This document shows positions 20,546-47,557 of a stretch of 64,000 nucleotides of DNA, piece after piece (positions within the stretch are counted from its first letter, which is position 1; every line of letters starts with the position of its first letter). The translations under genes and the position numbers were made by a program. Origin of the DNA: Roseovarius mucosus DSM 17069 (lineage in GTDB: Bacteria > Pseudomonadota > Alphaproteobacteria > Rhodobacterales > Rhodobacteraceae); NCBI RefSeq assembly GCF_000768555.3, contig NZ_KN293975.1, positions 620,001 to 684,000 of the forward strand, given 5' to 3'. The notes below the pieces were generated by a model. The model was not told the DNA's origin, did no database searches, and worked only from the letters and a program-made list of their open reading frames with translations.

Positions 20546-21646
20546 ATGGAATTTCTGGAGTATTCGCATAATCTCTGGTTGGTCGTTGCGTCATTGAGCG
20601 TGTCGCTCGTGGCAGCCTTTACCGGGTTTTCACTGACCCGCGGCATTGCGGCGCAACCCGTAGCGATGCGCAAACTTTCTGTGACCTTAGCGGCGATTGC
20701 GCTGGGCGGCGGCATCTGGTCGATGCATTTCGTGGCGATGCTGGGGCTGCAGCTGCCGATCCCGATCTATTACGATGCGATGATCACGCTCGGCTCGGCG
20801 CTGATTGCGATCCTGATGGTGGGCGCGGCGCTGTTGCTATTGCATTTCTACCCGCGCACACGGGCGAGCCTGACGGCGGCGGGCTGTATCATTGGCCTTG
20901 GTATCGTGGCGATGCATTATCTGGGCATGTCGGGGCTGCAACTGTGCCGGGCGGTCTATACGCTGCCGGGCGTGGTCTTGGCGGTGCTGGCAGCCTGTGG
21001 GCTGAGCGTGGCGGCGATATGGGTGGCCTATGGTCAGAGGCGGCCGCGCAATATCCTGCTGGGCACGCTGGCCTTTGGTTTCGCCGTGTTCCTTGTGCAT
21101 TTCGCGGCGGTATTCGGCACGCGGTTCGTGGCGGTGCCGACGGTGCAGGAAATCGGGCCGCTCATGGGAAATGAGGTGCTGGCGCTGGGGGTATTGGTCA
21201 GTTCCTTCGTGCTCTGTGGCGCGTTCTTGCTGACGGGGGTCACGTTTTTGGCGCAGGGGAGCAAGGATGCGGAGGTGTCGCCCGCAGCGCCCGAGGTGAA
21301 ACCTGCCCAGGTCATGCAGAGGATACCCTATGAGCAGCATGGGCAGACGCATTTCATCGACGCGCGCGACGTGGCGTTTCTGCGCGCCGAGGGGCATTAC
21401 ACGCTGCTATACGCCGGGGCCAACAAGCATTTCTGCACCTGGTCGATCACCGAAGCCGAGCGGCGGCTGAGCCCCGGTCCGTTTCTCAAGGTGCATCGCA
21501 GCTATCTGGTGAACCCCGCCCATGTGGCCCATTTCGAGCGGCGCAAGGACAATGGCCTGTGCCATTTTCACCTTGGCGGGCAGGACGTTACCGCGCCCGT
21601 CAGCCGCTCGCGTCTTGCGGAGTTGCGTGAGGCGCTGGGCCTCTGA
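20546..21646 (+). CDS. MHYT-domain membrane sensor with LytTR DNA-binding domain
   Basis: The 366-residue protein has seven hydrophobic segments over residues 1-235 carrying the repeated MHYT-type motifs IWSMHFVAMLG, IVAMHYLGMSG and FLVHFAAVFG, whose Met/His residues are proposed to bind copper and sense O2, CO or NO. Residues about 258-366 are a LytTR domain (IDARDVAFLRAEGHYTLLYA; PFLKVHRSYLVNPAHVAHFE). This one-component membrane-bound regulator resembles CoxC/CoxH of carboxydotrophs. The ATG at 20546 has a poor ribosome site. It lies 115 bp after the oxidoreductase operon and 78-105 bp before the GTA portal gene, the place where terminase is usually found. Confidence 0.88.
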   Translation: MEFLEYSHNLWLVVASLSVSLVAAFTGFSLTRGIAAQPVAMRKLSVTLAAIALGGGIWSMHFVAMLGLQLPIPIYYDAMITLGSALIAILMVGAALLLLHFYPRTRASLTAAGCIIGLGIVAMHYLGMSGLQLCRAVYTLPGVVLAVLAACGLSVAAIWVAYGQRRPRNILLGTLAFGFAVFLVHFAAVFGTRFVAVPTVQEIGPLMGNEVLALGVLVSSFVLCGAFLLTGVTFLAQGSKDAEVSPAAPEVKPAQVMQRIPYEQHGQTHFIDARDVAFLRAEGHYTLLYAGANKHFCTWSITEAERRLSPGPFLKVHRSYLVNPAHVAHFERRKDNGLCHFHLGGQDVTAPVSRSRLAELREALGL

Positions 21647-21751
21647 GTGGCGCGCGCGCGGTCTGATTTACTTTCCTTAAACCTTTGACGGTCTGATGCC
21701 TCTCAAGCGGGCAAGAGGCCTGACATGAGCGGGATCAAGGAGAGCAGCGCG

Positions 21752-22942
21752 ATGATACTGGATTTCTTTCGGCAAGGGGCCATGGCGCCGGACGCGGTGC
21801 CCGAGCAGAAGGCAAGTGCCACGGGCCGCGTGATGGCCTGGCATGGCGCGGGGCGCGTGGCCTGGAGCCCGCGCGATACGGTCAGCCTGACGCGCACCGG
21901 GTTTGCCGGGAATCCGGTGGGGTTTCGCTGTGTAAAGATGATTGCCGAGGCTGCGGCGGCACTGCCGCTTGTCTTGCAGGATTGCGAGCAGCGTTTTGCT
22001 GTGCATCCGGTGCTGAGCCTGATCAAATGTCCCAATCCGGCGCAGGGTCGGGCGGAGCTGTTCGAGGCGCTTTACGGGCAACTCTTGTTGACCGGCAATG
22101 CCTATATCGAGGCGGTGGGGGTGGGCGGCGTACCGGCGGAATTGCATGTGCTGCGCTCTGACCGGATGAGTGTGGTGCCGGGGGCGGACGGTTGGCCTGT
22201 GGCCTATGAATATGCGGTGGGTGGGCGCAAGCATCGGTTCGATGTGCGCGAGGGTGTGCCTTGTGTCTGTCACATCAAGAGCTTTCATCCGCAGGACGAT
22301 CATTATGGGCTGAGCCCGCTTCAGGCGGCGGCGCAGGCGGTGGATGTGCATAATTCGGCAAGCCGATGGTCCAAGGCTCTCTTGGACAATGCCGCGCGGC
22401 CGTCGGGGGCGATTGTCTACAAGGGCCCTGAGGGACAGGGAGCGATGTCGGGCGATCAGTACGACCGTTTGGTGAGCGAGATGGAGGCGCATCATCAGGG
22501 CGCGCGCAATGCCGGGCGTCCAATGTTGCTCGAAGGCGGGCTGGACTGGAAACCGATGGGGTTCAGCCCGTCGGACATGGAATTCCAGAAGACCAAGGAG
22601 AGTGCCGCGCGCGAGATTGCGCTGGCCTTTGGGGTGCCGCCGATGCTGCTTGGCATTCCCGGCGATGCGACCTTTGCCAATTATCAGGAGGCGAACCGGG
22701 CCTTCTATCGGCTGACGGTTCTGCCGCTGGCGATGCGGGTGACGGCGACGGTTGCGGCGTGGTTGGGGCGCATGAGTGGCGCGGCGCTGGACCTTGCCCC
22801 CGATCTCGATCAGGTGCCCGCCCTGGCCGCTGAACGCGATGCGCAATGGGCGCGGGTGAGTGCGGCGGATTTCCTGACGGAAGCGGAAAAGAGGCGGCTT
22901 TTGGGCCTGCCTGCCGTGGCGGCGGAGGAAGTTGATGGCTGA
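21752..22942 (+). CDS. GTA portal protein (ORFg3)
   Basis: The 396-residue HK97-type portal begins MILDFFRQGAMAPDAVPEQK and continues KASATGRVMAWHGAGRVAWS, NPVGFRCVKMIAEAAAALPL and DATFANYQEANRAFYRLTVL, as in Rhodobacter GTA portals. It forms the dodecameric DNA gate of the head. I chose ATG 21752 because AAGGAG lies 9 bases upstream and the length equals the usual 396 residues. An in-frame ATG at 21725, with its own AAGAGG, adds nine residues. The gene opens the cluster; no terminase precedes it. The next gene overlaps by 8 bp. Confidence 0.95.
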   Translation: MILDFFRQGAMAPDAVPEQKASATGRVMAWHGAGRVAWSPRDTVSLTRTGFAGNPVGFRCVKMIAEAAAALPLVLQDCEQRFAVHPVLSLIKCPNPAQGRAELFEALYGQLLLTGNAYIEAVGVGGVPAELHVLRSDRMSVVPGADGWPVAYEYAVGGRKHRFDVREGVPCVCHIKSFHPQDDHYGLSPLQAAAQAVDVHNSASRWSKALLDNAARPSGAIVYKGPEGQGAMSGDQYDRLVSEMEAHHQGARNAGRPMLLEGGLDWKPMGFSPSDMEFQKTKESAAREIALAFGVPPMLLGIPGDATFANYQEANRAFYRLTVLPLAMRVTATVAAWLGRMSGAALDLAPDLDQVPALAAERDAQWARVSAADFLTEAEKRRLLGLPAVAAEEVDG

Positions 22943-23180
22943 ACGGGGCACAGCGCCGCCGCGCTACGGGTTTGAGGCGTTCGATTGCGCGCCTGGGCTG
23001 CGGTTGGAGGCGCATGAACGGGTGTCGGAATTGCAGACGCGGGCGCTGACCGAACGCCAAGAGCGAATGGAGGCGGCTTTGGAGCGTCTGGAGCGACGGC
23101 TTTGGTTGGCGGTTTACGGCGTGGCGGCGGCGATACTGGCGCAGGCGTTTCAACCTCTCTTGGCTGTATTGCCGGGGTGA
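22935..23180 (+). CDS. GTA head formation protein (ORFg3.5, rcc01685 family)
   Basis: The 81-residue protein starts MAERGTAPPRYGFEAFDCAP. It has an amphipathic helix in the middle (VSELQTRALTERQERMEAAL) and a hydrophobic C-terminal segment (LWLAVYGVAAAILAQAF). This matches the small gene always found between portal and protease in Rhodobacterales GTAs, which is needed for head formation. It overlaps the portal gene; ATG 22935 has GGAGGA directly upstream. Confidence 0.85.
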   Translation: MAERGTAPPRYGFEAFDCAPGLRLEAHERVSELQTRALTERQERMEAALERLERRLWLAVYGVAAAILAQAFQPLLAVLPG

Positions 23181-23203
23181 AGTCGAACGAAAGGAGGAAG
23201 CGG

Positions 23204-23761
23204 ATGGAAATGGAACCGGGATTGGAGCGCAAGTTTGCGCGGCTGGATGGCACGATGCTGAGCGTGAGCGAGGCAGGACAGATCGAGGGCTATGCAAGCC
23301 TCTTTGGCGCGCCCGATCAGGGAGGCGATATTGTCGAGCGCGGGGCCTATGCGGCCTCGCTCGATCGGTTGGCCAAGGAGGGTCGGCGCGTCAAGATGCT
23401 GTGGCAGCATGATCCGGCGCAGCCCATCGGCATCTGGGACGAGGTGCGCGAGGACGCGCGCGGTCTCTGGGTCAAGGGGCGGCTTTTGGAGCCTGTGGAA
23501 CGGGCGCGCGAGGCGGCGGCACTGATCGCGGCGGGGGCGATTGACGGGCTGAGCATCGGTTATCGCACGCTGCGCGCGGCGAAGAATGACAAGGGCCAGC
23601 GGCTCTTGCGGGAACTGGAGCTGTGGGAGGTGTCGCTGGTGACATTTCCGATGCTGCCCAGTGCGCGGGTGACGGTCAAGGGCGATGCCCTCGACGTCCA
23701 AACCCTGCGCGAGATGGCGGCGGCGTTTGACGCGGCCCGCCGGGAGATGGCGCAGGTGTAG
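23204..23761 (+). CDS. GTA HK97-family prohead protease (ORFg4)
   Basis: The 185-residue maturation protease shows the U35/HK97 pattern: an early strand-rich region GQIEGYASLFGAPDQGGDIV, the catalytic His in MLWQHDPAQPIGIW, the catalytic Ser in IDGLSIGYRTLR and the conserved ELELWEVSLVTFPMLPSARV. It trims the capsid N-terminal scaffold during head assembly. I chose ATG 23204 because AAAGGAGG precedes it by 6 bases; upstream in-frame starts overlap g3.5 and look non-coding. Confidence 0.95.
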   Translation: MEMEPGLERKFARLDGTMLSVSEAGQIEGYASLFGAPDQGGDIVERGAYAASLDRLAKEGRRVKMLWQHDPAQPIGIWDEVREDARGLWVKGRLLEPVERAREAAALIAAGAIDGLSIGYRTLRAAKNDKGQRLLRELELWEVSLVTFPMLPSARVTVKGDALDVQTLREMAAAFDAARREMAQV

Positions 23762-23793
23762 CGCCCGACAACGACCCAAACCTGAAGGATGGA

Positions 23794-24975
23794 ATGATGA
23801 TGACCCAAGCGAAGGCTCGGGCCGGGGAAGATCTGTCTCCGGTGGCCGAGGTGAAATCCGCAGTGGCGGGTTTCTTGAGCGAATTCAGCGGCTTTCGGGC
23901 CGAAATTCACAACCGACTGCAACAGCAAGAAGAGAAAATGACTATGTTTGAACGCAAATCCATCGCGCTTGCACGTCCGCATCTTGCCGCGACCACAGAC
24001 GGCTCTGCGCCGCACCGCAAGGCGTTTGACGCCTATCTGCGGGGTGGCGACGATGACGGGCTGCGCGGCCTCGAATTGGAGGGCAAGGCGCTCAATACCG
24101 CGATTGCGGGTGAGGGCGGCTATCTGGTCGATCCGCAGACCGCCGAGACGATCCGCTCGGTGCTGAGTTCCACCGCGTCGATCCGGGCGGTTGCCAATGT
24201 GGTGGCGGTTGAGGCCACCAGCTTTGACGTGCTGGTGGATCACACCGATGTCGGCCATGGCTGGGCCACGGAGAGCGGCACGGTGTCCGAGACCGACACG
24301 CCGGTGATCGACCGGATCAGTATCCCGCTGCATGAGCTGAGCGCGTTGCCCAAGGCAAGCCAGCGGCTCTTGGATGACAGCGCCTTTGACGTCGAAGGTT
24401 GGCTTGCGGGGCGTATCGCCGACAAATTCGCGCGCGCAGAGGCGGCGGCCTTTGTTTCGGGCGACGGGGTGGACAAACCGCGCGGGTTTCTGACCCATCC
24501 GAATCTTGACAATGATGTCTGGGTCTGGGGCAATCTGGGCTATGTGCCCACGGGCGTTGCGGGCGCGATTGCCGGGCCCGATCCGATTGTCGATCTGGTC
24601 TATGCCCTGGGCGCGCAATACCGGGCGAACGGCACCTTCGTGATGAACTCCAAGACCGCAGGCACCATTCGCAAGATGAAGGATGCCGATGGGCGGTTCC
24701 TGTGGTCGGATGGGCTTGCGGCAGGAGAGCCTGCGCGGCTGATGGGCTATCCGGTGCTGATCGCCGAGGACATGCCGGACATTGCCGCCGGGGCCAATGC
24801 GATTGCCTTTGGGGATTTCCATGCCGGATACACGGTGGCCGAGCGCCCTGATCTGCGCGTGTTGCGCGATCCCTACAGCGCCAAGCCGCATGTGTTGTTC
24901 TACGCGACCAAGCGGGTGGGTGGCGATGTGTCTGATTTCAAGGCGATTAAGCTGTTGAAATTCGCCGTTTCCTGA
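23794..24975 (+). CDS. GTA major capsid protein (ORFg5)
   Basis: The 393-residue HK97-fold capsid protein has a helical, Glu/Gln-rich N-terminal scaffold (about 1-48), which the neighbouring protease would remove. Typical blocks follow: IAGEGGYLVDPQTAETIRSV, TTESGTVSET-like WATESGTVSETDTPVIDRIS, LHELSALPKASQRLLDDSAF and the C-terminal ERPDLRVLRDPYSAKPHVLF. Three ATG codons stand in a row at 23794-23802; I used the first. A 150-bp gap follows, the longest inside the cluster. Confidence 0.96.
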   Translation: MMMTQAKARAGEDLSPVAEVKSAVAGFLSEFSGFRAEIHNRLQQQEEKMTMFERKSIALARPHLAATTDGSAPHRKAFDAYLRGGDDDGLRGLELEGKALNTAIAGEGGYLVDPQTAETIRSVLSSTASIRAVANVVAVEATSFDVLVDHTDVGHGWATESGTVSETDTPVIDRISIPLHELSALPKASQRLLDDSAFDVEGWLAGRIADKFARAEAAAFVSGDGVDKPRGFLTHPNLDNDVWVWGNLGYVPTGVAGAIAGPDPIVDLVYALGAQYRANGTFVMNSKTAGTIRKMKDADGRFLWSDGLAAGEPARLMGYPVLIAEDMPDIAAGANAIAFGDFHAGYTVAERPDLRVLRDPYSAKPHVLFYATKRVGGDVSDFKAIKLLKFAVS

Positions 24976-25051
24976 GGACGCGGCGACGGGGCGGGGGGTG
25001 ATCCCCTTGCCCCGGGGCGCGTGCCGTTCGGGCGAGGCGTTGTCCAACTGT

Positions 25052-25102
25052 CCCCTCCGTCCGTGCAACGCGGAATGGCGCGCGCCTGAACCACCGGAGG
25101 GG
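25052..25102 (+). other. Long-range inverted repeat between capsid gene and g6
   Basis: In the 150-bp gap after the capsid gene, CCCCTCCG (25052-25059) can pair with CGGAGGGG (25095-25102), enclosing 35 bases. A GC-rich stretch with GGGGCGGGG and CCCC blocks lies just before it (about 24988-25018). These may partly terminate transcription or protect the capsid mRNA, so that capsid is made in excess over the connectors. No T-run is present. Confidence 0.35.
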
Positions 25103-25125
25103 TCCGGGATATATGGAGTAGGTCC

Positions 25126-25725
25126 ATGATGTTAATCGAAGAAACTGCGGTGTCCCCGGCCGCGCTGCCGTTGGCGGAGTTCAAGGCGCATCTGCGGCTG
25201 GGCACAGGGTTTGCCGATGACGATATCCAGGACCCGGTTCTGGAGAGTTTTTTGCGCGCGGCGATTGCGGCCATCGAGGGACGCACGGGCAAGGTGCTGC
25301 TGGAGCGCGAATTTTCCTGGGCGCTGCATCAGTGGCGGGATGCGGCGGGGCAGGCCTTGCCGGTCGCCCCCGTGAGCGCTGTGTTGAGCTTTAGTTTGCG
25401 CAACCGGGCGGATGAGGTCGAGGTGATCGACCCTGCACTCTACAGGTTGGAGCAGGACGCGCATCGGCCCTTGGTGCGGCCTGTGGGCACGTTCCTGCCA
25501 GCAATCGGGCGCGGCGCTGTGGCGGAAATCAGGTTTCGCGCGGGTTATGGTGCGGGTTGGCCTGATATTCCCGCCGATCTGGCACAAGCGGTGCTGATGC
25601 TGGCGGCGCATTATTACGAATACCGGCACGAGACCAGTCTGAGCAGCGGCTGCATGCCCTTTGGGGTGGCCAGCCTGATCGAGCGCTATCGCACGGTGCG
25701 TTTATTGGGTGGGGGGGCGCGGTGA
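25126..25725 (+). CDS. GTA head-tail connector (ORFg6, gp6-like adaptor)
   Basis: The 199-residue protein matches the Phage_gp6/YqbG-type connector in GTAs. It has LPLAEFKAHLRLGTGFADDD, then FLRAAIAAIEGRTGKVLLER, WRDAAGQALPVAPVSAVLSF and the conserved FRAGYGAGWPDIPADLAQAV. A C-terminal HYYEYRHE segment follows. It lies just below the portal in the neck of the particle. The stop codon overlaps the start of the next gene. Confidence 0.92.
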   Translation: MMLIEETAVSPAALPLAEFKAHLRLGTGFADDDIQDPVLESFLRAAIAAIEGRTGKVLLEREFSWALHQWRDAAGQALPVAPVSAVLSFSLRNRADEVEVIDPALYRLEQDAHRPLVRPVGTFLPAIGRGAVAEIRFRAGYGAGWPDIPADLAQAVLMLAAHYYEYRHETSLSSGCMPFGVASLIERYRTVRLLGGGAR

Positions 25726-26063
25726 TGGCGCGTCCGAGGTTGAACCGTCGTCTGGTGCTTGAGGGCGCTTCGCGTCTGGCGGATGGGGCGGGCGGGTTCG
25801 CGGAAGTCTGGGAGGCGCGTGGGACGCTCTGGGCCGAGGTCAGCGCACGGTCGGGCCGAGAGGCCGAAGCCGCGGGGTTGGCTGTGGCGCGGGCAGGCTA
25901 TCGGATCACGGTGCGCGCGGCGCCCCAAGGGGTGGCGTCGCGGCCTGTGGCCGGACAGCGGCTGCGCGATGGTGCGCGGATTTTCGCGATCCTGTCGGTG
26001 ACAGAGGCCGATGGGGCGGGCCGATACCTGAGCCTCTGGGCGCAAGAGGAGGTGGTGCCATGA
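25725..26063 (+). CDS. GTA head closure/adaptor protein (ORFg7)
   Basis: The 112-residue protein (MARPRLNRRLVLEGASRLAD) resembles SPP1 gp16-type head closure proteins: GGFAEVWEARGTLWAEVSAR, then YRITVRAAPQGVASRPVAGQ and FAILSVTEADGAGRYLSLWA. It would stop DNA leakage and join head to tail. The ATG at 25725 shares its A with the upstream stop; a GTG one codon earlier is also possible. Confidence 0.9.
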   Translation: MARPRLNRRLVLEGASRLADGAGGFAEVWEARGTLWAEVSARSGREAEAAGLAVARAGYRITVRAAPQGVASRPVAGQRLRDGARIFAILSVTEADGAGRYLSLWAQEEVVP

Positions 26064-26473
26064 GCTATGCGATGGCGGCGGGATTACAGACGGCGGTCTA
26101 TCAGCGGCTGGTGCAGGATGCGGCGCTGAGCGCGTTGGTGGGCGGTGCGATCCATGACGCGGTGCCGCCGGGCCGGGTGCCGCCGCTCTATGTGACGCTT
26201 GGTCCTGAAGAGGCGCGCGAGCGCGGCGATGGCACGGCGGGCGGGGCCTGGCATCGGTTCACGATCACGGTCGTGAGCGAAAGCGCCGGCTTCCAACAGG
26301 CCAAGGCGGTCGCAGGTGCCGTCAGCGATGCGCTGGTGGGCGTGGAGCTGTCGCTTGCTCGCGGGCGACTGAGCAGTCTGAATTTTCTGCGCGCCCGCGC
26401 GCGGCGCGAAGCGGGCGGACAGGCGCGACGGATCGACCTGATCTTTCAGGCGCGCGTCGATGAGGGCGCGTAA
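26060..26473 (+). CDS. GTA tail terminator/stopper, DUF3168 (ORFg8)
   Basis: The 137-residue protein has the DUF3168 pattern: LQTAVYQRLVQDAALSALVG, AIHDAVPPGRVPPLYVTLGP, then WHRFTITVVSESAGFQQAKA and a C-terminal RRIDLIFQARVDE strand. It overlaps g7 by 4 bp. In GTA particles it sits at the head-tail joint and ends tail polymerisation. Confidence 0.92.
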   Translation: MSYAMAAGLQTAVYQRLVQDAALSALVGGAIHDAVPPGRVPPLYVTLGPEEARERGDGTAGGAWHRFTITVVSESAGFQQAKAVAGAVSDALVGVELSLARGRLSSLNFLRARARREAGGQARRIDLIFQARVDEGA

Positions 26474-26497
26474 CCTTTAATCTCTGGAGTGACGACT

Positions 26498-26911
26498 ATG
26501 GCGGTACAGAATGGCAAGGACCTGCTGGTCAAGATCGACCTGAACGGCAGCGGTAATTTTCAGACGGTGGCGGGACTGCGCGCCACGCGGGTCAGTTTCA
26601 ACGCCGAGAGCGTGGATGTGACCAGCCTCGAATCCGCAGGCGGCTGGCGCGAGTTGCTGGCCGGTGCGGGTGTGAAATCCGCGAATATCAGTGGCTCGGG
26701 CATTTTCCGCGATGCGCAGAGTGATGCGCGCGCGCGGCAGATCTTCTTTGACGGCGAGATGCCGGATTTTCAGGTGGTGATCCCGGATTTCGGCACCATC
26801 GAGGGGCCATTCCAAGTGACGGCGATCGAATATGGCGGCACCCATGATGGCGAGGCGACCTATGAGTTGGCGCTCGCCTCGGCGGGGCAGTTGACCTTTA
26901 CGGTGCTGTGA
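26498..26911 (+). CDS. GTA major tail protein (ORFg9)
   Basis: The 137-residue tail tube protein starts MAVQNGKDLLVKIDLNGSGN and continues RVSFNAESVDVTSLESAGGW, VKSANISGSGIFRDAQSDAR and EGPFQVTAIEYGGTHDGEAT, as in TP901-1-like tail tube proteins of GTAs. I chose ATG 26498; an ATG nine bases upstream is in frame but sits too near GGAG. Expected to form stacked hexameric rings of the short tail. Confidence 0.93.
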   Translation: MAVQNGKDLLVKIDLNGSGNFQTVAGLRATRVSFNAESVDVTSLESAGGWRELLAGAGVKSANISGSGIFRDAQSDARARQIFFDGEMPDFQVVIPDFGTIEGPFQVTAIEYGGTHDGEATYELALASAGQLTFTVL

Positions 26912-26916
26912 ACGTG

Positions 26917-27240
26917 ATGGCCAACCCCTGGGCAGGCGAAGTGGCGCTGGTCATTGGCGGCGAACGGCAGGTGATGCGGCTGACGCTAGGGGCCTTGGCC
27001 GAGTTGGAGGCGGCGCTGGAGAGCGGTTCGCTCGTCGATCTGGTGGCACGGTTCGAGGGCGGTGCGTTTTCCACCCGCGATGTGCTGGCGCTGATCGTGG
27101 CGGGGTTGCGCGGGGGCGGCTGGCGCGGATCGGCGGCGGATTTGCTGAGTGCCGACATCGAAGGCGGGCCCATGGCGGCGGCGCGGGCGGCGGCGGAACT
27201 CTTGGCGCGGGCCTTTGCGCTGCCTGAGGTGGGCGGATGA
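26917..27240 (+). CDS. GTA gene 10 protein (tail assembly, DUF3356-like)
   Basis: The 107-residue protein MANPWAGEVALVIGGERQVM has the typical RLTLGALAELEAALESGSLV and STRDVLALIVAGLRGGGWRG stretches of GTA gp10, thought to be a tail assembly chaperone. A GTG at 26908, overlapping the upstream stop, would add three residues; the ATG start matches homologous N-termini. It overlaps the next gene by 4 bp, as paired tail chaperone genes do. Confidence 0.88.
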   Translation: MANPWAGEVALVIGGERQVMRLTLGALAELEAALESGSLVDLVARFEGGAFSTRDVLALIVAGLRGGGWRGSAADLLSADIEGGPMAAARAAAELLARAFALPEVGG

Positions 27241-27443
27241 GTGGGCGGTTTGATTGGCCAGCCTTGATGCGCGCGGGGATGCAGGGACTGGGTCTGCGAC
27301 CGGCGGAGTTCTGGGCACTTACGCCAGCCGAATTGCGCTTGATGCTGGGCGAGCGGCAGGGCGTGCAGCCCATGGCGCGCGCGGGGCTTGAGGCGCTGTT
27401 GCGCGCCTTTCCCGACAGACAAGGAGAGATGAGCGATGGATGA
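27237..27443 (+). CDS. GTA gene 10.1, phage tail assembly chaperone family
   Basis: The 68-residue protein (MSGRFDWPALMRAGMQGLGL) contains RPAEFWALTPAELRLMLGER, the hallmark of rcc01693/DUF2376 tail assembly chaperones. With gp10 it likely coats the tape measure protein during tail assembly. It overlaps both neighbours (4 bp and 8 bp). No slippery sequence was needed to read either frame. Confidence 0.9.
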   Translation: MSGRFDWPALMRAGMQGLGLRPAEFWALTPAELRLMLGERQGVQPMARAGLEALLRAFPDRQGEMSDG

Positions 27444-28095
27444 GTTGGAACGGGCCGACGAGCTTGAGGCGCAGATTGCAGCCCTCGATGACGCAATGGG
27501 GCAGGCTACGGGGATGGCGGCGGCCTTTGGCGCGGAACTTGCGCGGGTGAAGGGCGGCTTTGCCAGTGCCGGGCAGGACGTGCAGTCGCTGGAACGGGGC
27601 CTGAGCCGGGGATTGCGCGGTGCCATACGCGGCGCTGTGGTCGATGGCGATGGCCTGTCGGACAGTTTGCGAAGGTTGGCCACGATCATGGTCAACACTG
27701 CCTTCAACGATGCGACACGTCCGGTGACGGATCAGATTGGCGGGCTGATTTCGCAGGGGATCGGCAGCCTCGTGGGCGGGCTGTTTCCGTTTGCCAAGGG
27801 GGCGTCGTTTTCGCAAGGCCGCGTGCAGCCCTTTGCCAATGGCGGCGTGGTGAGCGGACCTGTGAGCTTTCCGATGCGTGGCGGCACGGGGTTGATGGGC
27901 GAGGCGGGGCCGGAGGCGATCATGCCGCTCAGCCGTGGCCCGGATGGGCGTTTGGGCGTGCGCGCGCAGGGCGGCGGGGGCGTGAGTGTGGTGATGAATA
28001 TTCAGACGCCTGACGCCGAAGGGTTTCGCCGCTCTCAGGGGCAGATCGCGGCGCAGCTTGGCCGCGTGATCGGACGCGGTGGGCGCAATCGCTGA
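27436..28095 (+). CDS. GTA tape measure protein (ORFg11)
   Basis: The 219-residue protein is short, as in GTAs with short tails. It has a helical N-terminal half (MDELERADELEAQIAALDDA), a hydrophobic glycine-rich middle (GGLISQGIGSLVGGLFPFAK) and the conserved C-terminal region FANGGVVSGPVSFPMRGGTG and LMGEAGPEAIMPLSRGPDGR, which is shared by lambda-family tape measures. It sets tail length and threads the tail tube. Confidence 0.92.
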   Translation: MDELERADELEAQIAALDDAMGQATGMAAAFGAELARVKGGFASAGQDVQSLERGLSRGLRGAIRGAVVDGDGLSDSLRRLATIMVNTAFNDATRPVTDQIGGLISQGIGSLVGGLFPFAKGASFSQGRVQPFANGGVVSGPVSFPMRGGTGLMGEAGPEAIMPLSRGPDGRLGVRAQGGGGVSVVMNIQTPDAEGFRRSQGQIAAQLGRVIGRGGRNR

Positions 28096-28108
28096 AAAGG
28101 AGCGGGAC

Positions 28109-28741
28109 ATGGGATTTCACGAGGTCAGATTTCCGGCGAGCCTGAGTTTCGGCTCGCTTGGCGGGCCGGAGCGGCTGACGGATATTGTCACGCTGGCCAA
28201 CGGGTTTGAGGAGCGCAACACGCCCTGGGCGCAGGCGCGCAGGCGGTATGACGCGGGCGTGGCGCTTCGGTCGCTGGATGATATCGAGGCGTTGATTGCA
28301 TTTTTCGAGGCGCGGCGTGGGCAGCTTTTCGGGTTTCGCTGGAAGGACTGGACCGATTTCAAATCTGGCCGGGCCAAGGCGGCGCCGGATTACCGGGATC
28401 AGGAGATTGGTGTGGGGGATGATGCAACGGTCGCCTTTCCGCTTTTGAAATCCTATCGGTCTGGCGATCAGGTGGCGGTGCGCCCCATCGTCAAACCGGT
28501 CAAGGGCACGGTGCGCATGGGCCTCGATAATGTCGAAATGCAGGAGGGCGTGCATTACGCGGTTGATACATTTACGGGCATCGTCACGTTCTCTGAGCCG
28601 CCAAATCGCGGCGTTCCGGTCACGGCGGGGTATGAATTCGATGTGCCGGTGCGGTTCGATACGGACCGTATTCAGACCAGCCTTGCCAGCTTTCAGGCGG
28701 GCGAGGTGCCCAATGTGCCGGTCGTGGAGATCCGGGTATGA
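28109..28741 (+). CDS. GTA distal tail protein, DUF2460 (ORFg12)
   Basis: The 210-residue protein starts MGFHEVRFPASLSFGSLGGP, with AAGGAG 7 bases upstream. DUF2460 landmarks are RLTDIVTLANGFEERNTPWA, LIAFFEARRGQLFGFRWKDW, and VTAGYEFDVPVRFDTDRIQ. It closes the tail tube and carries the baseplate. An ATG 30 bases upstream, inside g11, was rejected. Overlaps g13 by 4 bp. Confidence 0.94.
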   Translation: MGFHEVRFPASLSFGSLGGPERLTDIVTLANGFEERNTPWAQARRRYDAGVALRSLDDIEALIAFFEARRGQLFGFRWKDWTDFKSGRAKAAPDYRDQEIGVGDDATVAFPLLKSYRSGDQVAVRPIVKPVKGTVRMGLDNVEMQEGVHYAVDTFTGIVTFSEPPNRGVPVTAGYEFDVPVRFDTDRIQTSLASFQAGEVPNVPVVEIRV

Positions 28742-29613
28742 GCGGGCTTCTGGAGCATCTCAAGTCGGGTGTCACCACGACCTGCCGGTGTTGGGCACTG
28801 ACCCGCCGCGACGGGGTGGTGATGGGGTTCACCGATCACGACCGGCCATTGACGTTCGAGGGCGTGACGTTTCGCCCCGATACCGGGCTGAGTGCGCTGG
28901 CCCTCCAGCAGACCACAGGGCTGTCGGTGGACAACACCGAAGCCCTCGGCGCGCTGAGCGATGCGGCCATCCGCGAGGCGGATATCGAGGCCGGGCGATA
29001 TGACGGCGCGGAGTTGCGCGCGTGGCTTGTCAATTGGCAGGATGTGACAGCGCGCAGCTTGATATTTCGCGGCACCATGGGCGAGTTGCGCCGCGCAGGT
29101 GGGGCCTTCGAGGCCGAGTTGCGCGGGCTGACCGATGCGCTCAATGTGCCGTTGGGGCGGGTCTATCAAAAGGCGTGCAGCGCCATTCTGGGGGATCGGA
29201 CCTGCACCTTTGATCTGGATACGCCGGGGTATGCTGCGGAGCGTCCCGCCGAGGAGGTTGAGGAGAACCGTGTGTTTCGCTTTGCCGAGATGGGCGGCTT
29301 TGAAGACGATTGGTTTCGGCATGGCGTGATCCGGGTATTGAGCGGGGCGGCCACGGGGCTGATCGGGCTGATCAAGCGCGACCGGAACGACGGCGCGGGA
29401 CGGGTGATTGATCTTTGGCATCCGTTTGGGGCGACAGTCGCGCCGGGGGATGCGCTGCGCATCGAAGCGGGGTGTGACAAGCGCATGGCAACCTGTCAGT
29501 TCAAGTTTGACAACCTTATGAACTTTCAAGGGTTTCCGGATATTCCCGGGGATGACTGGACGATCACGGATCCGACCAAGAGTGCGCATCTGGACGGTGG
29601 GAGCCGCAGATGA
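28738..29613 (+). CDS. GTA baseplate hub protein, DUF2163 (ORFg13)
   Basis: The 291-residue protein carries the N-terminal DUF2163 block (CRCWALTRRDGVVMGFTDHD), the middle VYQKACSAILGDRTCTFDLD with two conserved Cys, and the C-terminal CDKRMATCQFKFDNLMNFQG and GFPDIPGDDW. The four cysteines probably bind an iron-sulfur cluster, as shown structurally for the Rhodobacter GTA hub. Overlaps g12 and g14 by 4 bp each. Confidence 0.94.
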   Translation: MSGLLEHLKSGVTTTCRCWALTRRDGVVMGFTDHDRPLTFEGVTFRPDTGLSALALQQTTGLSVDNTEALGALSDAAIREADIEAGRYDGAELRAWLVNWQDVTARSLIFRGTMGELRRAGGAFEAELRGLTDALNVPLGRVYQKACSAILGDRTCTFDLDTPGYAAERPAEEVEENRVFRFAEMGGFEDDWFRHGVIRVLSGAATGLIGLIKRDRNDGAGRVIDLWHPFGATVAPGDALRIEAGCDKRMATCQFKFDNLMNFQGFPDIPGDDWTITDPTKSAHLDGGSRR

Positions 29614-30053
29614 GCGGGCAGGACACGCGGATTGTCGCGGCAGCGCGGGGCTGGATCGGTACACCCTACCGGCATCAGGCGGCCTGTCGCGGGGCGGGCT
29701 GTGATTGTCTGGGGCTGGTGCGAGGCCTCTGGCGAGAGATCAAGGGTGCCGAGCCAGAGCAACCGCCGGCCTATTCGATGGACTGGTCCGAACCGGCGCG
29801 GGACGAGGCGCTGTGGCGGGCCGCGGCGCGGCATTTGCTGGCCAAGGATCTGGCCCAAGAGGCGGTGGGTGATGTGATCCTCTTTCGCATGCGCGAAGGG
29901 TCGGTTGCCAAGCATCTGGGCGTGGTCGCGGGCGTCGGCGCGCGCGCGTCTTTCATTCATGCCTATTCGGGGCATGGCGTGGTTGAGACCGCGCTGAGCG
30001 CCCCGTGGCGGCGGCGCATCGTAGCGCGATTTGCATTTCCCGAGGAGGGCTGA
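29610..30053 (+). CDS. GTA cell wall peptidase, NlpC/P60 family (ORFg14)
   Basis: The 147-residue protein has the NlpC/P60 pattern: WIGTPYRHQAACRGAGCDCL with nucleophile Cys33, the His in KHLGVVAG (about 102) and a second polar/His position in FIHAYSGHGVVE (about 117). It would open recipient peptidoglycan during DNA delivery. It overlaps g13 by 4 bp and is followed by the giant tip gene after 3 bp. Confidence 0.94.
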   Translation: MSGQDTRIVAAARGWIGTPYRHQAACRGAGCDCLGLVRGLWREIKGAEPEQPPAYSMDWSEPARDEALWRAAARHLLAKDLAQEAVGDVILFRMREGSVAKHLGVVAGVGARASFIHAYSGHGVVETALSAPWRRRIVARFAFPEEG

Positions 30054-30056
30054 GCC

Positions 30057-33000
30057 ATGGCAACCATTCTGTTATCCGCCGCGGGGGCAGCGATTGGCGG
30101 CGCGGTGGGCGGCACGGCGCTTGGCCTGTCGTCGGTGGCGATCGGGCGCTTTGCCGGGGCCGTGATCGGCCGTTCGATTGACCAACGGCTGTTGGGCCAA
30201 GGATCGGAAGTGGTCGAGACAGGGCGCGTCAGCCGGTTGCGCCTGACCGGCGCGGGCGAGGGTGATGCCATCCCGCAGGTTTACGGGCGCATGCGTGTGG
30301 GCGGACAGGTGATCTGGGCCACCGAGTTTCGCGAAAATGTAACCGTAACCCAAGGCAGCCGGGGCGGCGGCAAGGGCAATCCCCGCCCCGCCACGCCCGA
30401 TACGCGCGCGATCAGCTATTCACTGAGTTTGGCGCTTGCGCTCTGCGAGGGGGAGATTACCCGTGTCGCAAGGGTCTGGGCGGATGGGACCGAGGTGGCG
30501 CCCAGCAGTCTCAACATGCAGGTCTACAAGGGCACGCGCGATCAATTGCCCGATCCCCGGATCGAGGCGGTGGAAGGGGAGGGCAATGTTCCCGCCTATC
30601 GTGGCACCGCCTATGTGGTGATCGAGGATCTGGACATCAGCCAGTTCGGCAACCGTGTTCCACAGTTCAGTTTCGAGGTGTGCCGCCCGTCGCAGGCGGG
30701 CAGCCCGGGGGCCGATCTTGATCCGATGCGGGCGGTGCGGGGCGTGGCGCTGCTGCCCGGCACGGGGGAATACGCGCTGGCCACGACGCCGGTCACGATG
30801 AATTTTGGCCTTGGATCGAGCGGGATCGCAAATATCAACAGCCCCTCCGCGCGCGCGGATATGACCACGGCGCTGGAGGGCCTGGTTGAAGAACTGCCGG
30901 GATGTGGGGCGGTGTCGCTGATCGTCAGCTGGTTCGGGGACGATCTGCGCTGCGGGGTTTGCCAGATCAGGCCGAGGGTGGAGCAAAAGCAATTCGAAGC
31001 GACGAACATGCCCTGGCAGGTTTCAAGCCTGAGCCGTGCCGAGGCGGGGGAAGTGCCCAAGGATACGCAGGGTCGCGAGGTCTATGGCGGCACGCCGACC
31101 GACCAGGCGGTGATCGAGGCCATTCTTGCGCTGCAACAGGCGGGGCAAGAGGTGCTTTACTATCCGTTCATCCTGATGGAGCAGATGCCGGGTAATGGCC
31201 TGCCCGATCCGTGGAGCGGGGCCGAGGATCAGGCGGTGCTGCCATGGCGCGGGCGGATTACCACCTCCAAGGCCCCAGGGCAGGCGGGCAGCCCGGATGG
31301 CACGCCAGAGGCGGAGGCGGAGGTCGCTGCGTTCTTCGGCACCGCGCGCGCCGTAGATTTCACGGTGACTCCCATTGCGGCGCAGGTGGCGGAGAGACCC
31401 GGCACCGGTGCGCTGGACCTTTTGAGCTTTGGCGGCGCGGTCAAGCTGAGCCCGGTGGCCTATCATGGCCCCGATGAGTGGTCTTACCGGCGGTTCATCC
31501 TGCATCAGGCCGCACTTTGTGCTGCTGTGGGGGGCGTCGAAAGCTTTTGCATCGGGTCGGAAATGCGTGGCCTCACGCAGATCCGGGGGGCGAACAACAG
31601 CTTTCCGGCGGTGGCACAGCTGATCGCCTTGGCGGCAGAGGTGCGCGCGTTGATGGGGCCAGAGGTCAAGATCAGCTATGCGGCCGATTGGTCGGAATAT
31701 TTCGGTTATCAACCGGGGAATGGGGATCGGTTCTTTCACCTCGATCCCCTGTGGGCGGATGGCAATATCGACTTTATCGGCATCGACAATTACATGCCCC
31801 TCAGCGATTGGCGCGACGGGGACGCGCACCTTGACGCGCGAGACTGGCCGTCGATCTATGATCTGGACTATCTGCAAGGCAATATCGCGGGGGGTGAGGG
31901 CTATGACTGGTTCTACCCAACGGCAGAAGCGCGCGCGGCGCAGCGGCGGGTGTCGATCACGGATGAGGCCCATGGCGAGCCGTGGATCTGGCGCTTCAAG
32001 GATCTGCGAAGCTGGTGGGAAAACCGGCATTTCGAGCGGGTGGGCGGGCTGCGTGTGCCTGAGCCAACCGCATGGGTGCCGCAATCGAAACCGATCCGTT
32101 TTACTGAATATGGCTGTGCGGCCGTGGACAAGGGCACCAACGAGCCGAACAAGTTTCTGGACCCCAAATCGTCGGAGTCGCGCCTGCCGCGGCATTCGAC
32201 AGGGCAGCGCGATGAGTTGATCCAGGTGCAATACTTGCGGGCTATGGCGGCCTTTTGGACTGATCCGGCGCGGAATCCGACGTCAGAGGAATTCGAGGGT
32301 CGGATGGTCGATATGGATCACGCCTATGTTTGGGCGTGGGACGCGCGGCCTTATCCCTATTTTCCGAGCAATCTCGACCTTTGGTCGGATGGTGCGAATT
32401 ACGCGCGCGGGCATTGGATCAATGGGCGGGTAAGCGGGCGGCGATTGGCGGATGTGCTTGCCGAAGTGGCGGCGCGCGCGGGCCTGAGCGATCTGGACAC
32501 AAGCCGCGCCGAGGGATTCCTGCGCGGCTACCTAGTGGATCAGGTCAGCGAGGCGCGTGCAACCTTACAACCCTTGATGCTCGCCTATGGTCTTGATGCA
32601 ATCGAGCGGGCTGGTGTGCTTGAATTCCGCAAGCGGCACGGGCGAGTGGATCACGCCGTCGATCTCAATCGGGTGGTGCGCGATCCGGAATTGGGGGGGG
32701 TGATAGAGGAACTGCGCGGCAGCGACCTGGAACTTGCGGGCCGGGTGCGATTACGGTTTCTGCAGGCGGATGCCGATTATGAGGCGATTTCTGAAGAGGC
32801 GATCCTGCCCGATGAGGAGACGCATGCGGTGGCAACTTCGGAGATGCCGCTGGCGCTGACGCGGGCCGAGGGGCGGCAGGTGGTGGAGAGGTGGCTCTCG
32901 GAAGCGCGGCTGTCGGTCGATACGCTGCGCCTGACGTTGCCGCCCTCGCAACTGGCCGTTGGCGCGGGGGATGTGATTGAGATGCCCAAAGGCGACGCTG

Positions 33001-34064
33001 GCGCGCGGTTTCGGATCGACCGGGTTGAGCAGATGGGCAATGCGCAGCGCGTCGATGCGGTGCGGATCGACCCTGAAAGTTATCGGCCCATTCTGATCGA
33101 CGACAGCCCGGCGCGGTTGCGCCCTTTTGTGGCCCCGGGGCCGGTGACGCCACTTTTTCTTGATCTGCCACTCTTGACCGGCGAGGAGGTGCCACATGCG
33201 CCGCATATCGCGGTGCTGGCCAATCCCTGGCCTGGGACGGCGGCGATCTATTCTGCCTCGGAGGATGCCAATTATCGGCTCAACACCTTGGTTGCAGCGC
33301 GCAGCACGGTAGGGGTGACGCAAACGCCGCTCTTACCAGCACCCATGGGGAGGATCGACCGGGGCGATGGGTTGTTCGTGCGGATGCGGTTCGGGACCTT
33401 GGAGAGCGTGGGCGATGCGGCGCTCTTGAACGGCGGCAATCTCTGCGCCATTGGCGACGGCACGCCGGGGGGCTGGGAATTGTTCCAGTTCCGCGATGCG
33501 GAGTTGGTGGCGCCGGAGACGTATGTTCTGCGCCACCGGTTGCGCGGGCAGGCGGGAACGGAACGGGCAGGCGGGGGCGTCTGGCCTGCGGGGTCACTTT
33601 TCGTGCGGCTCAACGGCGTGCCGCAGCAGATCGAATTGACCGAGGCGCAGCGCGGACAGGCGTTGCATTACCGGATCGGGCCGGGGGGACGGCCGGTGGA
33701 TGATCCGAGCTTCGCCCATGCGGTGCTGGCCTTTGACGGGGTGGGTCTGCGCCCTTATGCGCCGGTTCATCTGCGGCTGGTTGAGGTCGATGGCGATCTG
33801 GCAGTCTCATGGATCAGGCGAACGCGGATTGGCGGGGATCGGTGGGACACGCCCGAGGTGCCGCTAGGCGAAGAGAGCGAGCGCTATCTCGTGCGGGTGA
33901 TGCGGGGGACGCAGATCCTGCGAGAGGTCACTTTGGAGCGTTCGGAATGGATTTACTCGGCGACGGCGCGGGTTGCGGATGGGCCGGACGCGGGCAAAAG
34001 GATAGAGGTGGCGCAGATGTCTGCCAGTTTTGGGCCGGGCACATTCGCGGTCCGTGAACTCTGA
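30057..34064 (+). CDS. GTA megatron/host specificity protein (ORFg15)
   Basis: The 1335-residue tail tip protein starts with a glycine-rich hydrophobic stretch (LSAAGAAIGGAVGGTALGLS). It then has the GTA TIM-barrel-like domain (about residues 430-750), recognisable from IGSEMRGLTQIRGANNSFPA, YAADWSEYFGYQPGNGDRFF and FIGIDNYMPLSDWRDGDAHL. The later part matches the phage-tail hub domain (DLDTSRAEGFLRGYLVDQVS) and ends in an Ig-like or receptor-binding region. The TIM barrel is proposed to act on surface sugars. The frame is intact throughout, including a G8 run near 32693, and a terminator follows at 34107. Confidence 0.95.
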   Translation: MATILLSAAGAAIGGAVGGTALGLSSVAIGRFAGAVIGRSIDQRLLGQGSEVVETGRVSRLRLTGAGEGDAIPQVYGRMRVGGQVIWATEFRENVTVTQGSRGGGKGNPRPATPDTRAISYSLSLALALCEGEITRVARVWADGTEVAPSSLNMQVYKGTRDQLPDPRIEAVEGEGNVPAYRGTAYVVIEDLDISQFGNRVPQFSFEVCRPSQAGSPGADLDPMRAVRGVALLPGTGEYALATTPVTMNFGLGSSGIANINSPSARADMTTALEGLVEELPGCGAVSLIVSWFGDDLRCGVCQIRPRVEQKQFEATNMPWQVSSLSRAEAGEVPKDTQGREVYGGTPTDQAVIEAILALQQAGQEVLYYPFILMEQMPGNGLPDPWSGAEDQAVLPWRGRITTSKAPGQAGSPDGTPEAEAEVAAFFGTARAVDFTVTPIAAQVAERPGTGALDLLSFGGAVKLSPVAYHGPDEWSYRRFILHQAALCAAVGGVESFCIGSEMRGLTQIRGANNSFPAVAQLIALAAEVRALMGPEVKISYAADWSEYFGYQPGNGDRFFHLDPLWADGNIDFIGIDNYMPLSDWRDGDAHLDARDWPSIYDLDYLQGNIAGGEGYDWFYPTAEARAAQRRVSITDEAHGEPWIWRFKDLRSWWENRHFERVGGLRVPEPTAWVPQSKPIRFTEYGCAAVDKGTNEPNKFLDPKSSESRLPRHSTGQRDELIQVQYLRAMAAFWTDPARNPTSEEFEGRMVDMDHAYVWAWDARPYPYFPSNLDLWSDGANYARGHWINGRVSGRRLADVLAEVAARAGLSDLDTSRAEGFLRGYLVDQVSEARATLQPLMLAYGLDAIERAGVLEFRKRHGRVDHAVDLNRVVRDPELGGVIEELRGSDLELAGRVRLRFLQADADYEAISEEAILPDEETHAVATSEMPLALTRAEGRQVVERWLSEARLSVDTLRLTLPPSQLAVGAGDVIEMPKGDAGARFRIDRVEQMGNAQRVDAVRIDPESYRPILIDDSPARLRPFVAPGPVTPLFLDLPLLTGEEVPHAPHIAVLANPWPGTAAIYSASEDANYRLNTLVAARSTVGVTQTPLLPAPMGRIDRGDGLFVRMRFGTLESVGDAALLNGGNLCAIGDGTPGGWELFQFRDAELVAPETYVLRHRLRGQAGTERAGGGVWPAGSLFVRLNGVPQQIELTEAQRGQALHYRIGPGGRPVDDPSFAHAVLAFDGVGLRPYAPVHLRLVEVDGDLAVSWIRRTRIGGDRWDTPEVPLGEESERYLVRVMRGTQILREVTLERSEWIYSATARVADGPDAGKRIEVAQMSASFGPGTFAVREL

Positions 34065-45839: not shown

Positions 45840-46787
45840 ATGAGCCGAGCATTCGTTTTTCCGGGGCAGGGCGCGCAGGTGATCGGCATGGGCGCGGATT
45901 TGGCCGCTAGCTATCCGGCGGCGCGCGCGGTGTTCGATGAGGTGGATGAAGCGCTTGGGCAAAAGCTGTCCACGTTGATATGGGACGGTGCGCAAGAGAC
46001 TCTTACTCTGACCGAAAATGCACAACCGGCGCTGATGGCCACCTCGCTTGCTGCGCTACGCGCGCTGGAGGCCGAAGGCGTGGACCTTTCAAAGGCCGCA
46101 AGCCATGTGGCGGGGCATTCGTTGGGCGAATACTCGGCTCTTGCGGCTGCAGGGGCGATCAGCGTGGCCGATACCGCGCGGCTTTTGCGTATTCGGGGAC
46201 AGGCGATGCAACAGGCCGTGCCGGTGGGCGTCGGCGCGATGGCCGCGTTGTTGGGGCTCGATTTCGAAACCGCACGCACTATCGCGCAAGAGGCTGCAGA
46301 GGGCGAAGTGTGCCAGGCGGCCAATGATAATGATCCTGCGCAGGTGGTGATCTCTGGGCACAAAAGCGCGGTAGAGCGTGCGGTGGAGTTGGCCAAGGCA
46401 CGCGGAGCGAAACGCGCGATGCTCCTGCCTGTAAGCGCGCCCTTTCACTGTGCCCTGATGGCTCCTGCCGCCGATGTGATGGCACAGGCCCTCTCCGAGG
46501 TCGCAATCCATGCGCCGGCAGTACCTCTCGTGGCCAATGTGCGCGCGCAAGCTGTGACGGACCCGGCGGAGATCCGCGCGCTTTTGGTTGAGCAGGTTAC
46601 GGGCTCTGTCCGATGGCGCGAGTCAGTGCAATATATGGAAGCACAAGGCGTCACCGAAATTTGGGAAATCGGCGCGGGCAAGGCGCTCTCGGGCATGGTG
46701 CGCCGCATCGCGCGTGACCTCACCTGCCGGACCATTGGCACGTCTGACGAGGTCGCAGCGGCAATGGCCAGCCTGACCGCGAACTGA
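45840..46787 (+). CDS. fabD: Malonyl-CoA:ACP transacylase
   Basis: The 315-residue enzyme starts MSRAFVFPGQGAQVIGMGAD and carries the catalytic Ser in VAGHSLGEYSALAAAGAI, the conserved His in SAPFHCALMAPAADVM and the arginine region RLLRIRGQAMQQAVP. It loads malonate onto ACP for fatty acid synthesis. It heads the fabD-fabG-acpP run; the long open frame upstream of ATG 45840 crosses the b561 promoter region and was rejected. A GGGAGGGGCAGG ribosome-site region precedes the start. Confidence 0.96.
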   Translation: MSRAFVFPGQGAQVIGMGADLAASYPAARAVFDEVDEALGQKLSTLIWDGAQETLTLTENAQPALMATSLAALRALEAEGVDLSKAASHVAGHSLGEYSALAAAGAISVADTARLLRIRGQAMQQAVPVGVGAMAALLGLDFETARTIAQEAAEGEVCQAANDNDPAQVVISGHKSAVERAVELAKARGAKRAMLLPVSAPFHCALMAPAADVMAQALSEVAIHAPAVPLVANVRAQAVTDPAEIRALLVEQVTGSVRWRESVQYMEAQGVTEIWEIGAGKALSGMVRRIARDLTCRTIGTSDEVAAAMASLTAN

Positions 46788-46819
46788 TTTGCGTAACGTT
46801 TACCAAGGAAGGACTGAAC

Positions 46820-47557
46820 ATGTTTGATCTGACAGGGAAAACCGCGCTTGTCACCGGCGCGTCAGGTGGCATAGGCGCGGCGATAGCCCGCGCGTTGCAT
46901 GGTGCGGGCGCAACCGTCGGGTTGAGCGGGACGCGGATCGAGCCGCTGGAGTCTTTGGCTGCGGAGTTGGGCGGTCGGGCGCATGTCCTGCCCTGCAACC
47001 TTGGAGATGCCGAGGCGGTCGAGGCGCTGACCAAGGACGCCGCCGCCGCTATGGGCGGGCTCGATATTCTGGTGAACAATGCAGGCATCACCCGTGACCA
47101 GCTTTTCATGCGGATGTCCGACAAGGACTGGCATGATGTGCTCGATGTCAATCTGACCTCAGCGATGCGTCTCTGCCGAGGGGCCGTGCGCCCGATGATG
47201 AAGGCACGGTGGGGGCGGATCATCAATATCGGTTCGATCGTGGGATCAAGTGGCAATCCTGGCCAGGCCAATTACGCCGCCGCCAAGGCGGGGCTCGTGG
47301 GCATGACCAAATCGATAGCTGCAGAGGTCGCCAGCCGGGGTATCACTGTCAATGTCGTGGCGCCGGGCTTTATCGCCACGCCGATGACCGAAAAGCTCAA
47401 TGACGAGCAGAAGGCCGCGCTCAATGTCCAGATCCCTATGGCTCGCATGGGAACACCCGAGGAGATTGCCGCCGCGGTTCTTTATCTCGCAAGCCCCGAG
47501 GCAGGCTATGTCACCGGGGCCACGCTGCATGTGAATGGTGGCATGTCGATGTACTGA
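46820..47557 (+). CDS. fabG: 3-oxoacyl-ACP reductase FabG
   Basis: The 245-residue short-chain dehydrogenase shows LVTGASGGIGAAIARALHGA, NNAGITRDQLFMRMSDKDWH, and the catalytic Ser-Tyr-Lys set in IINIGSIVGSSGNPGQANYA followed by AAKAG. The C-terminal GMSMY end is typical of FabG. It performs the first reduction of each fatty acid elongation cycle with NADPH. It lies 32 bp after fabD and 230 bp before acpP. Confidence 0.96.
   Translation: MFDLTGKTALVTGASGGIGAAIARALHGAGATVGLSGTRIEPLESLAAELGGRAHVLPCNLGDAEAVEALTKDAAAAMGGLDILVNNAGITRDQLFMRMSDKDWHDVLDVNLTSAMRLCRGAVRPMMKARWGRIINIGSIVGSSGNPGQANYAAAKAGLVGMTKSIAAEVASRGITVNVVAPGFIATPMTEKLNDEQKAALNVQIPMARMGTPEEIAAAVLYLASPEAGYVTGATLHVNGGMSMY

Follow-up and report, generated by a model that had tools for sequence, protein, structure and literature searches.

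The closest described relative of the locus considered here is the gene transfer agent (GTA) of Rhodobacter capsulatus, RcGTA (rcc01682-rcc01698). Its terminase pair g1-g2 leads one cluster, which is described as having a common promoter (PMC10883770), and its regulator GafA is reported to bind 75–125 bases upstream of g1 (PMC9638019). In the GTA of Caulobacter crescentus (CcGTA), controlled by GafY/GafZ, the GafZ site is situated between the -35 and -10 elements and GafZ bypasses terminators; the authors of that study suggest that GafA may likewise bypass them (PMC11150451). These and all later citations refer to passages of the papers concerned. The stretch studied here, called the window below, comprises 64,000 nucleotides of Roseovarius mucosus DSM 17069 (C1:620001-684000 of a 4.24-Mb genome in 17 contigs) and contains the particle genes g3-g15 of an RcGTA-type GTA. 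The corresponding g1-g2 pair was found 89 kb away, and it is quite probable that the two halves form a bipartite GTA, likely still packaging host DNA into g3-g15 particles.

According to Pfam and NCBIfam profiles, the head-tail genes from the portal to the megatron are complete, contiguous, in canonical order and all on the plus strand (21725-34064), and the RcGTA_tape and GTA_megatron profiles both matched above their curated cut-offs. The gene set and order are those of an RcGTA-type GTA, in agreement with the original prediction, made from the letters alone, that the structural genes are intact and lack g1 and g2 in front of them. Locally, no terminase gene occurs upstream of the portal, where the neighbour is an open reading frame (ORF) of the MHYT-LytTR type, in turn preceded by FMN oxidoreductases. 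The portal start common to relatives is the ATG at 21752 with AAGGAG ahead of it, which leaves a gap of 105 bp to the MHYT-LytTR gene; a longer portal ORF starts at 21725 and leaves 78 bp. The interval of 78–105 bp given earlier corresponds to these two candidate starts.

A genome-wide search with PF03237, the one terminase family covered, gave a single match, C1:731751-732356 on the minus strand, outside the window. It lies in an intact large terminase gene (TerL, g2; 470 amino acids, C1:731178-732587, minus strand; PF03237 and PF17289). Directly before it, and overlapping it as in relatives, stands g1, with trpA before g1. Family profile searches with g1 gave no trusted match, and it was recognized by position and by homology to the g1 of relatives; a PDB search with TerL gave no match. 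The description of this locus as a GTA without a terminase gene is thus correct for the surroundings of the portal and incorrect for the genome, and of the two explanations offered with it, a terminase encoded elsewhere was the right one. Since a distant g1-g2 pair on the other strand, instead of one directly before the portal, is a feature of layout, the genome is still regarded as an RcGTA-type member, as a variant.

The same split was found in relatives. In Roseovarius sp. 217 (G035), assembled as one 4.1-Mb scaffold, the portal (2929690, plus strand) lies behind the same MHYT gene and TerL (3018619, minus strand) behind g1 and trpA, 88.9 kb from the portal. One metagenome-assembled genome (MAG), G067, has this layout on a single 448-kb contig with the halves ~92 kb apart, and another, G019, has both local junctions on two short contigs. 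The MHYT gene precedes the portal in these three genomes and also in G061. An assembly artefact, in which wrong ends were joined, is extremely unlikely: the source assembly is a draft of 17 contigs, yet both junctions lie within one 789-kb contig and recur in the three genomes named, in two of them on one contig each. The comparison of the junction with related genomes, which the original prediction had proposed, therefore speaks against misassembly.

Both TerL and the portal are present in 27 of 36 same-genus genomes (this one included): 21 have them within 1.4 kb, one at 9.5 kb, and five are split. The remaining nine comprise five with a collapsed cluster, three with neither gene (G010, G011, G017) and G018, which has a portal with a stop and in which no TerL was found. 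Among 80 named TerL loci, the fetched stretch included a portal for 69 (67 within 1.4 kb, two at 9.5–9.8 kb). Eleven had none, two of these stretches ending within 1.2 kb of TerL; each of these 11 genomes proved to have a portal at another place, that of R. aestuarii being truncated. Ten of the 11 are labelled Roseovarius. The exception is Thalassococcus profundi (G070; L103, L168), with TerL and portal ~84 kb apart and a distance correlation r of -0.01; its TerL may be foreign, and because the two histories disagree this genome was dropped from the tree described below. Every split falls at the g2/g3 junction as far as the contigs reach, those of G061 and G032 ending before g15. In a gap survey without duplicate loci and the five collapsed clusters, g2/g3 exceeded 400 bp in 12 of 69 loci (maximum 9.8 kb), and the other 13 junctions (69–77 loci each) showed a single gap of this size, 627 bp at g3/g4 in one locus.

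The relocated TerL is under purifying selection and has a common history with the portal. Of the 176 residues that do not vary among 32 unsplit TerLs it retains 175, and the sequences GGRGAGKT and GAWVDE are present at positions 80 and 178, respectively. Within the split clade the ratio of nonsynonymous to synonymous substitution rates (dN/dS) is 0.04–0.11 for TerL, 0.07–0.08 for the adjacent trpA, 0.05–0.07 for the portal and 0.04–0.06 for the capsid protein. Open frames and mostly low dN/dS were seen in every gene compared, namely g1, g2 and the ten structural genes other than g7, g10 and g15. TerL and portal distances to 45 other genomes correlate with r of 0.84–0.88 in the four clade members and of 0.75–0.90 across 11 Roseovarius split genomes. 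It is very unlikely, in our opinion, that the cluster is decaying or makes empty particles while the distant terminase is a remnant taking no part. Decay is indeed seen among the compared genomes, with a truncated portal in G069 (R. aestuarii), portal stops in G018, G021 and G022, TerL in two pieces in G031, the five collapsed clusters and the three genomes without detected TerL and portal; the open frames, the retained invariant residues and the history shared by TerL and portal argue against it here. The idea of empty or differently packaged particles, the second explanation in the original prediction, finds no support in a constrained TerL with its conserved residues kept, and empty particles are unlikely. 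Decaying GTA genes were recorded at loci L169, L053, L055, L057 and L028.

The portal gene is preceded by a conserved block in the order GCGnnCGGT, TTTACTTTCCTTAAACCTTT, TCTGATGC. It overlaps the end of terL in tight clusters and persists where terL is 0.25–10 kb away or gone. The combined motif precedes g3 at 24 of 90 loci and is absent ahead of the 14 other GTA genes (76–98 loci each); specificity is lower for the core by itself (g3, 47/90; g1, 31/85; other genes, 2 to 15). A strict form of the pattern occurs once each in five of six scanned genomes, always at g3, and here at 21659-21686. Read on the other strand, the block gives a bipartite motif, TTAA-N4-7-TAA-N2-6-ACCG, which it shares with the block upstream of the g1 promoter. 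It was counted in 18 of 90 g3 regions (15 genomes), in 7 of 85 g1 regions (4 genomes; one further g1 region has it in the other orientation) and before none of 13 other GTA genes. Of its five occurrences in this genome, one lies before g3 and one before g1, and that at 21659-21680 is the only one in the window. A pattern of TTAAA at a fixed distance from TCTGATG had no match anywhere. Judging by this conservation, the g3 element is predicted to act as a promoter.

The two halves might instead be intact but uncoupled, g1-g2 being under GafA and g3-g15 either expressed by read-through from MHYT-LytTR or silent, so that few transducing particles would be made. The MHYT gene lies on the same strand 105 bp upstream, and a promoter scanner recognized no sigma-70 -35/-10 pair in the g3 element, both of which fit such uncoupling. 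We consider it quite unlikely, given that the element also precedes g3 where the upstream neighbour is not MHYT and that its strict form is confined to g3 in the five genomes having it.

At many Roseovarius loci, g1 is preceded at ~135-112 bp by TTGACT-N17-TATAGG with a GCGnnCGGT-like core within the spacer, and this promoter-like block is followed by a GC-rich hairpin with a T-run. All ten split g1 leaders have TTGAC, and all ten have the GC-rich hairpin with T-run; block and hairpin were kept at the relocated g1, having moved along with g1-g2. Mean column identity over 14 chosen g1 leaders was 85%, and the predicted folding energy of the leader in this genome is -40.9 kcal/mol (z -3.45). The hairpin was seen with RNAfold, in the alignment and by a direct pattern search. 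The sigma-70/terminator scanner reported a different 9-of-12 match at g1 and neither TTGACT-N17-TATAGG nor the bulged hairpin, and a custom stem finder missed the hairpin in every one of the ten split leaders (it scored 19 of the 85 leaders as positive, and 0 to 9 regions at nine other genes). The hairpin of this genome is at L142:10838-10920 on the minus strand, and most of 22 chosen loci have one (not L083 and L087; weaker in L076). The predicted leader hairpin is consistent with anti-termination by GafA and is no proof of it.

Regulator and lysis genes, which the original prediction had advised looking for, are present: a GafA-type regulator (a PF20057 protein) and two GTA-type endolysin-holin pairs (PF05838 and PF11351) on different contigs (L253:3850-5027 and L254:4149-5323). 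As a test of function their presence is uninformative, because seven genomes without a detected GTA-type portal (G003, G010, G011, G012, G016, G033 and G034) also keep GafA-type (DUF6456) and GTA-type holin genes. This retention hints at another role for these genes.

Taken together, the packaging and particle modules are likely to have separate predicted promoters and to act in trans. GafA would activate both start sites in stationary phase; at g1 it may do so as an anti-terminator that lets transcription pass the leader hairpin. The packaging enzyme and the particle would then be made together, and TerL and g1 would dock in trans on portals produced from the other locus. That the break falls at g2/g3 would be explained by g3 having had a control element of its own beforehand.

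The history of the moves was considered with a tree of TerL plus portal from 45 genomes. The Roseovarius splits occupy one region of it, with the unsplit G023, G005 and L082 among them, and the four window-type genomes group as one clade (support 1.0). The MHYT/g3 junction is present in G061, where g1-g2 is still beside a gene that we take to be ispG-like; this flank is also found in the unsplit G001 and G020. No GTA gene occurs in ~15 kb around MHYT in the unsplit G001, G005 and G020 or in G010, in which no GTA TerL or portal was found, nor in ~15 kb around trpA in the unsplit G001, G005, G020 and G023 and the split G061 and G062. Because relatives have no GTA gene near trpA or MHYT, and G061 has the intermediate layout, g3-g15 probably moved first, from behind g2 to MHYT, and g1-g2 later to trpA. 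A single inversion as the sole cause would fit the opposite orientation of the halves, but the empty surroundings of trpA and MHYT and the layout of G061 favour two steps. The flanks differ in other split species, which suggests further moves there. In G008 an older anchor of the cluster is still visible, g1 being preceded by fabF-mltG-like genes and g15 followed by dksA- and cysE-like ones. The names trpA, purB and RF3 were taken from Pfam, and those of ispG, fabD, fabG, acpP, fabF, mltG, dksA and cysE are our own presumed readings of the sequences. An IS200-like transposase, presumably of the RAYT type, lies ~30 bp behind the relocated g2 (L142:8515-9159; PF01797, below cut-off); three REP-like palindromes are found in its surroundings and further downstream. 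A repeat-mediated move was rejected, as no REP-like palindrome occurs in the window and the breakpoint at the portal is therefore not explained by them.

A number of observations weigh against the view of a working bipartite GTA. TerL M357R, the sole exception among the 176 residues, is common to the split clade and unique to it, and g1 and g4, small genes with few sites, reach w of 0.42 and 0.57 in the closest pair. The core GCGnnCGGT alone is unspecific, turning up ahead of other GTA genes in as many as 15 of 81 regions, and in its exact form it was found in just 3 of 10 split g1 leaders. The strict g3 pattern has no match in G065, and the missing sigma-70 signature at g3 belongs here too. 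Exact copies of the bipartite motif are absent from 8 of 10 g1 regions and 5 of 10 g3 regions of split loci; the majority of split genomes from outside the window's clade have none at g1. Since the motifs were first picked out visually and the loci on which they were counted overlap, all these counts are descriptive and are not tests. GafA and holin genes kept without a portal mean that their presence is no proof of an active GTA. Finally, the unsplit G023 and G005 are placed inside the split clade with a support of 0.38 and the unsplit L082 nests among the splits, which leaves uncertain how many splits occurred and in which direction the moves went.

The five collapsed same-genus clusters consist of g1 and one in-frame ORF that joins TerL residues 1–184 to the last half of the megatron. 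An intein in TerL was considered and rejected: the 840–893-aa frames match TerL only at residues ~3–184, and as the remainder is megatron, they are fusions. Relative to the intact cluster of R. atlanticus, ~12 kb is missing in all five, and the end points coincide to within a few bases; in G034 (same sequence as in Roseovarius sp. THAF9) the identity stays even as far as the junction. A protein search, which favours intact proteins, gave 5521 matches; 101 of the best 120 are fusions of this type from many named genera, and in all 101 the Walker-B stretch of TerL is joined directly to megatron G-C. In 150 genomes of 150 genera, TerL was matched in 134, and 12 with a match ending near residue 184 or earlier were fetched: ten have the fusion junction, of which eight keep the frame open, one runs off the end of its contig and one is broken, and the remaining two have different deletions. 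In a tree of the short, weakly resolved N-part, 101 fusions and 80 intact proteins alternate with 31 changes; the C-part tree (96 fusions, 27 intact) has 11 changes and less alternation. The fusion has a dN/dS of 0.08 in the closest pair and of 0.17–0.37 in other pairs. The loci are L146-L150, L260-L268 and L270, and the proteins P0001-P0120. The deletion may arise repeatedly in the same form, or a single deletion allele may be spreading by recombination. The open frame hints at a function, perhaps of a new protein, and the fusion is possibly a more surprising result than the split. Most GTA clusters are too long for GTA particles (PMC6209664); the deletion allele could be carried by them.

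An RcGTA particle carries about 4 kb. It is doubtful that the halves are two modules moving independently of each other within Roseovarius genomes, a ~1.8-kb packaging module that has its own promoter and fits into a particle and a 12-kb particle module that is too long, tied by GafA-type control alone. If this were true, packaging alleles could spread via the particles themselves, and the particle genes could not.

Table 1. Features of the particle module and its upstream flank (window coordinates)
Feature	Coordinates	Strand	Evidence
MHYT-LytTR gene, unrelated host neighbour, upstream flank of particle module	20546..21646	+	PF03707, PF04397
Control-like conserved element before g3: core GCGCGCGGT, TTTACTTTCCTTAAACCTTT, TCTGATGC	21654..21700	+	conservation in relatives
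g3 portal (longer ORF from 21725)	21752..22942	+	PF04860, E 5.7e-88; start by relatives
Small ORF at g3.5 position, 81 aa	22935..23180	+	same protein cluster there in most loci compared; without Pfam family
g4 prohead protease (S78), start uncertain	23102..23761	+	PF04586
g5 major capsid protein (HK97)	23794..24975	+	PF05065, TIGR01554
g6 head-tail connector	25126..25725	+	TIGR02215
g7 head completion protein (HCP)	25722..26063	+	PF05521
g8 tail completion protein	26060..26473	+	PF11367
g9 tail tube protein	26489..26911	+	PF06199
g10 tail protein (TAC)	26908..27240	+	PF11836
g10.1-position tail assembly chaperone, 68 aa	27237..27443	+	PF09550
g11 tape measure protein	27436..28095	+	NF058675 RcGTA_tape, above cut-off
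g12	28079..28741	+	PF09343 DUF2460
g13 baseplate hub	28738..29613	+	PF09931, PF09356
g14 NlpC/P60 peptidase	29610..30053	+	PF00877
g15 megatron tail-tip protein	30057..34064	+	NF048004, 1833 bits; PF13547, PF13550, PF23666

Elsewhere in the window, genes that we take to be fabD-fabG-acpP-like were observed at 45840-48021, with no fabF- or mltG-like ORF labelled behind them in the window. In other genera, g1 usually has the fabF-mltG pair as its neighbour.

The existence of a clade with the halves apart means that linkage is not required for their conservation, and a terminase missing beside a GTA cluster need not indicate a dead GTA. This matters for surveys: one of them discarded regions without core genes (PMC10883770), and such a filter would drop a cluster without g2. 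The split also marks where the modules naturally divide, at a boundary that has a control element of its own, and it makes co-regulation by GafA and anti-termination directly testable.

Summarizing the comparison with known systems, the locus is like RcGTA in the set and order of g3-g15, in the type of its g1-g2 pair and in encoding a GafA-type regulator and endolysin-holin genes elsewhere. It differs in that g1-g2 does not head one cluster with a common promoter (PMC10883770) but lies 89 kb off, g3 having its own conserved element. It resembles CcGTA, at the level of sequence, in that a GCGnnCGGT-like core occupies the spacer in which the GafZ site lies there, and in a strong predicted hairpin with T-run after the promoter-like block, a possible counterpart of the terminator bypassed in CcGTA; it differs in that the hairpin stands in the leader before g1 and not behind the first gene, in the exact core being found in only 3 of 10 split leaders, and in the split cluster itself (PMC11150451). 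No report of a g2/g3 split or of a TerL-megatron fusion was found in the passages and listings of the GTA literature searched (PMC3419701, PMC6363796, PMC9638019, PMC11150451, PMC10883770, PMC7947584, PMC6854486, PMC6209664, PMC9836097 and PMC6821227). All parts of the locus are of RcGTA type; the split layout and the second control element were not met in the papers searched. Scattered GTA genes as such are already known, RcGTA itself being distributed over at least five loci (PMC10883770, PMC7947584). The separate RcGTA loci named there are those of the head spikes, the tail fibres, the lysis genes and gafA (PMC6209664, PMC6363796), whereas here it is the packaging pair that is separated from the particle genes.

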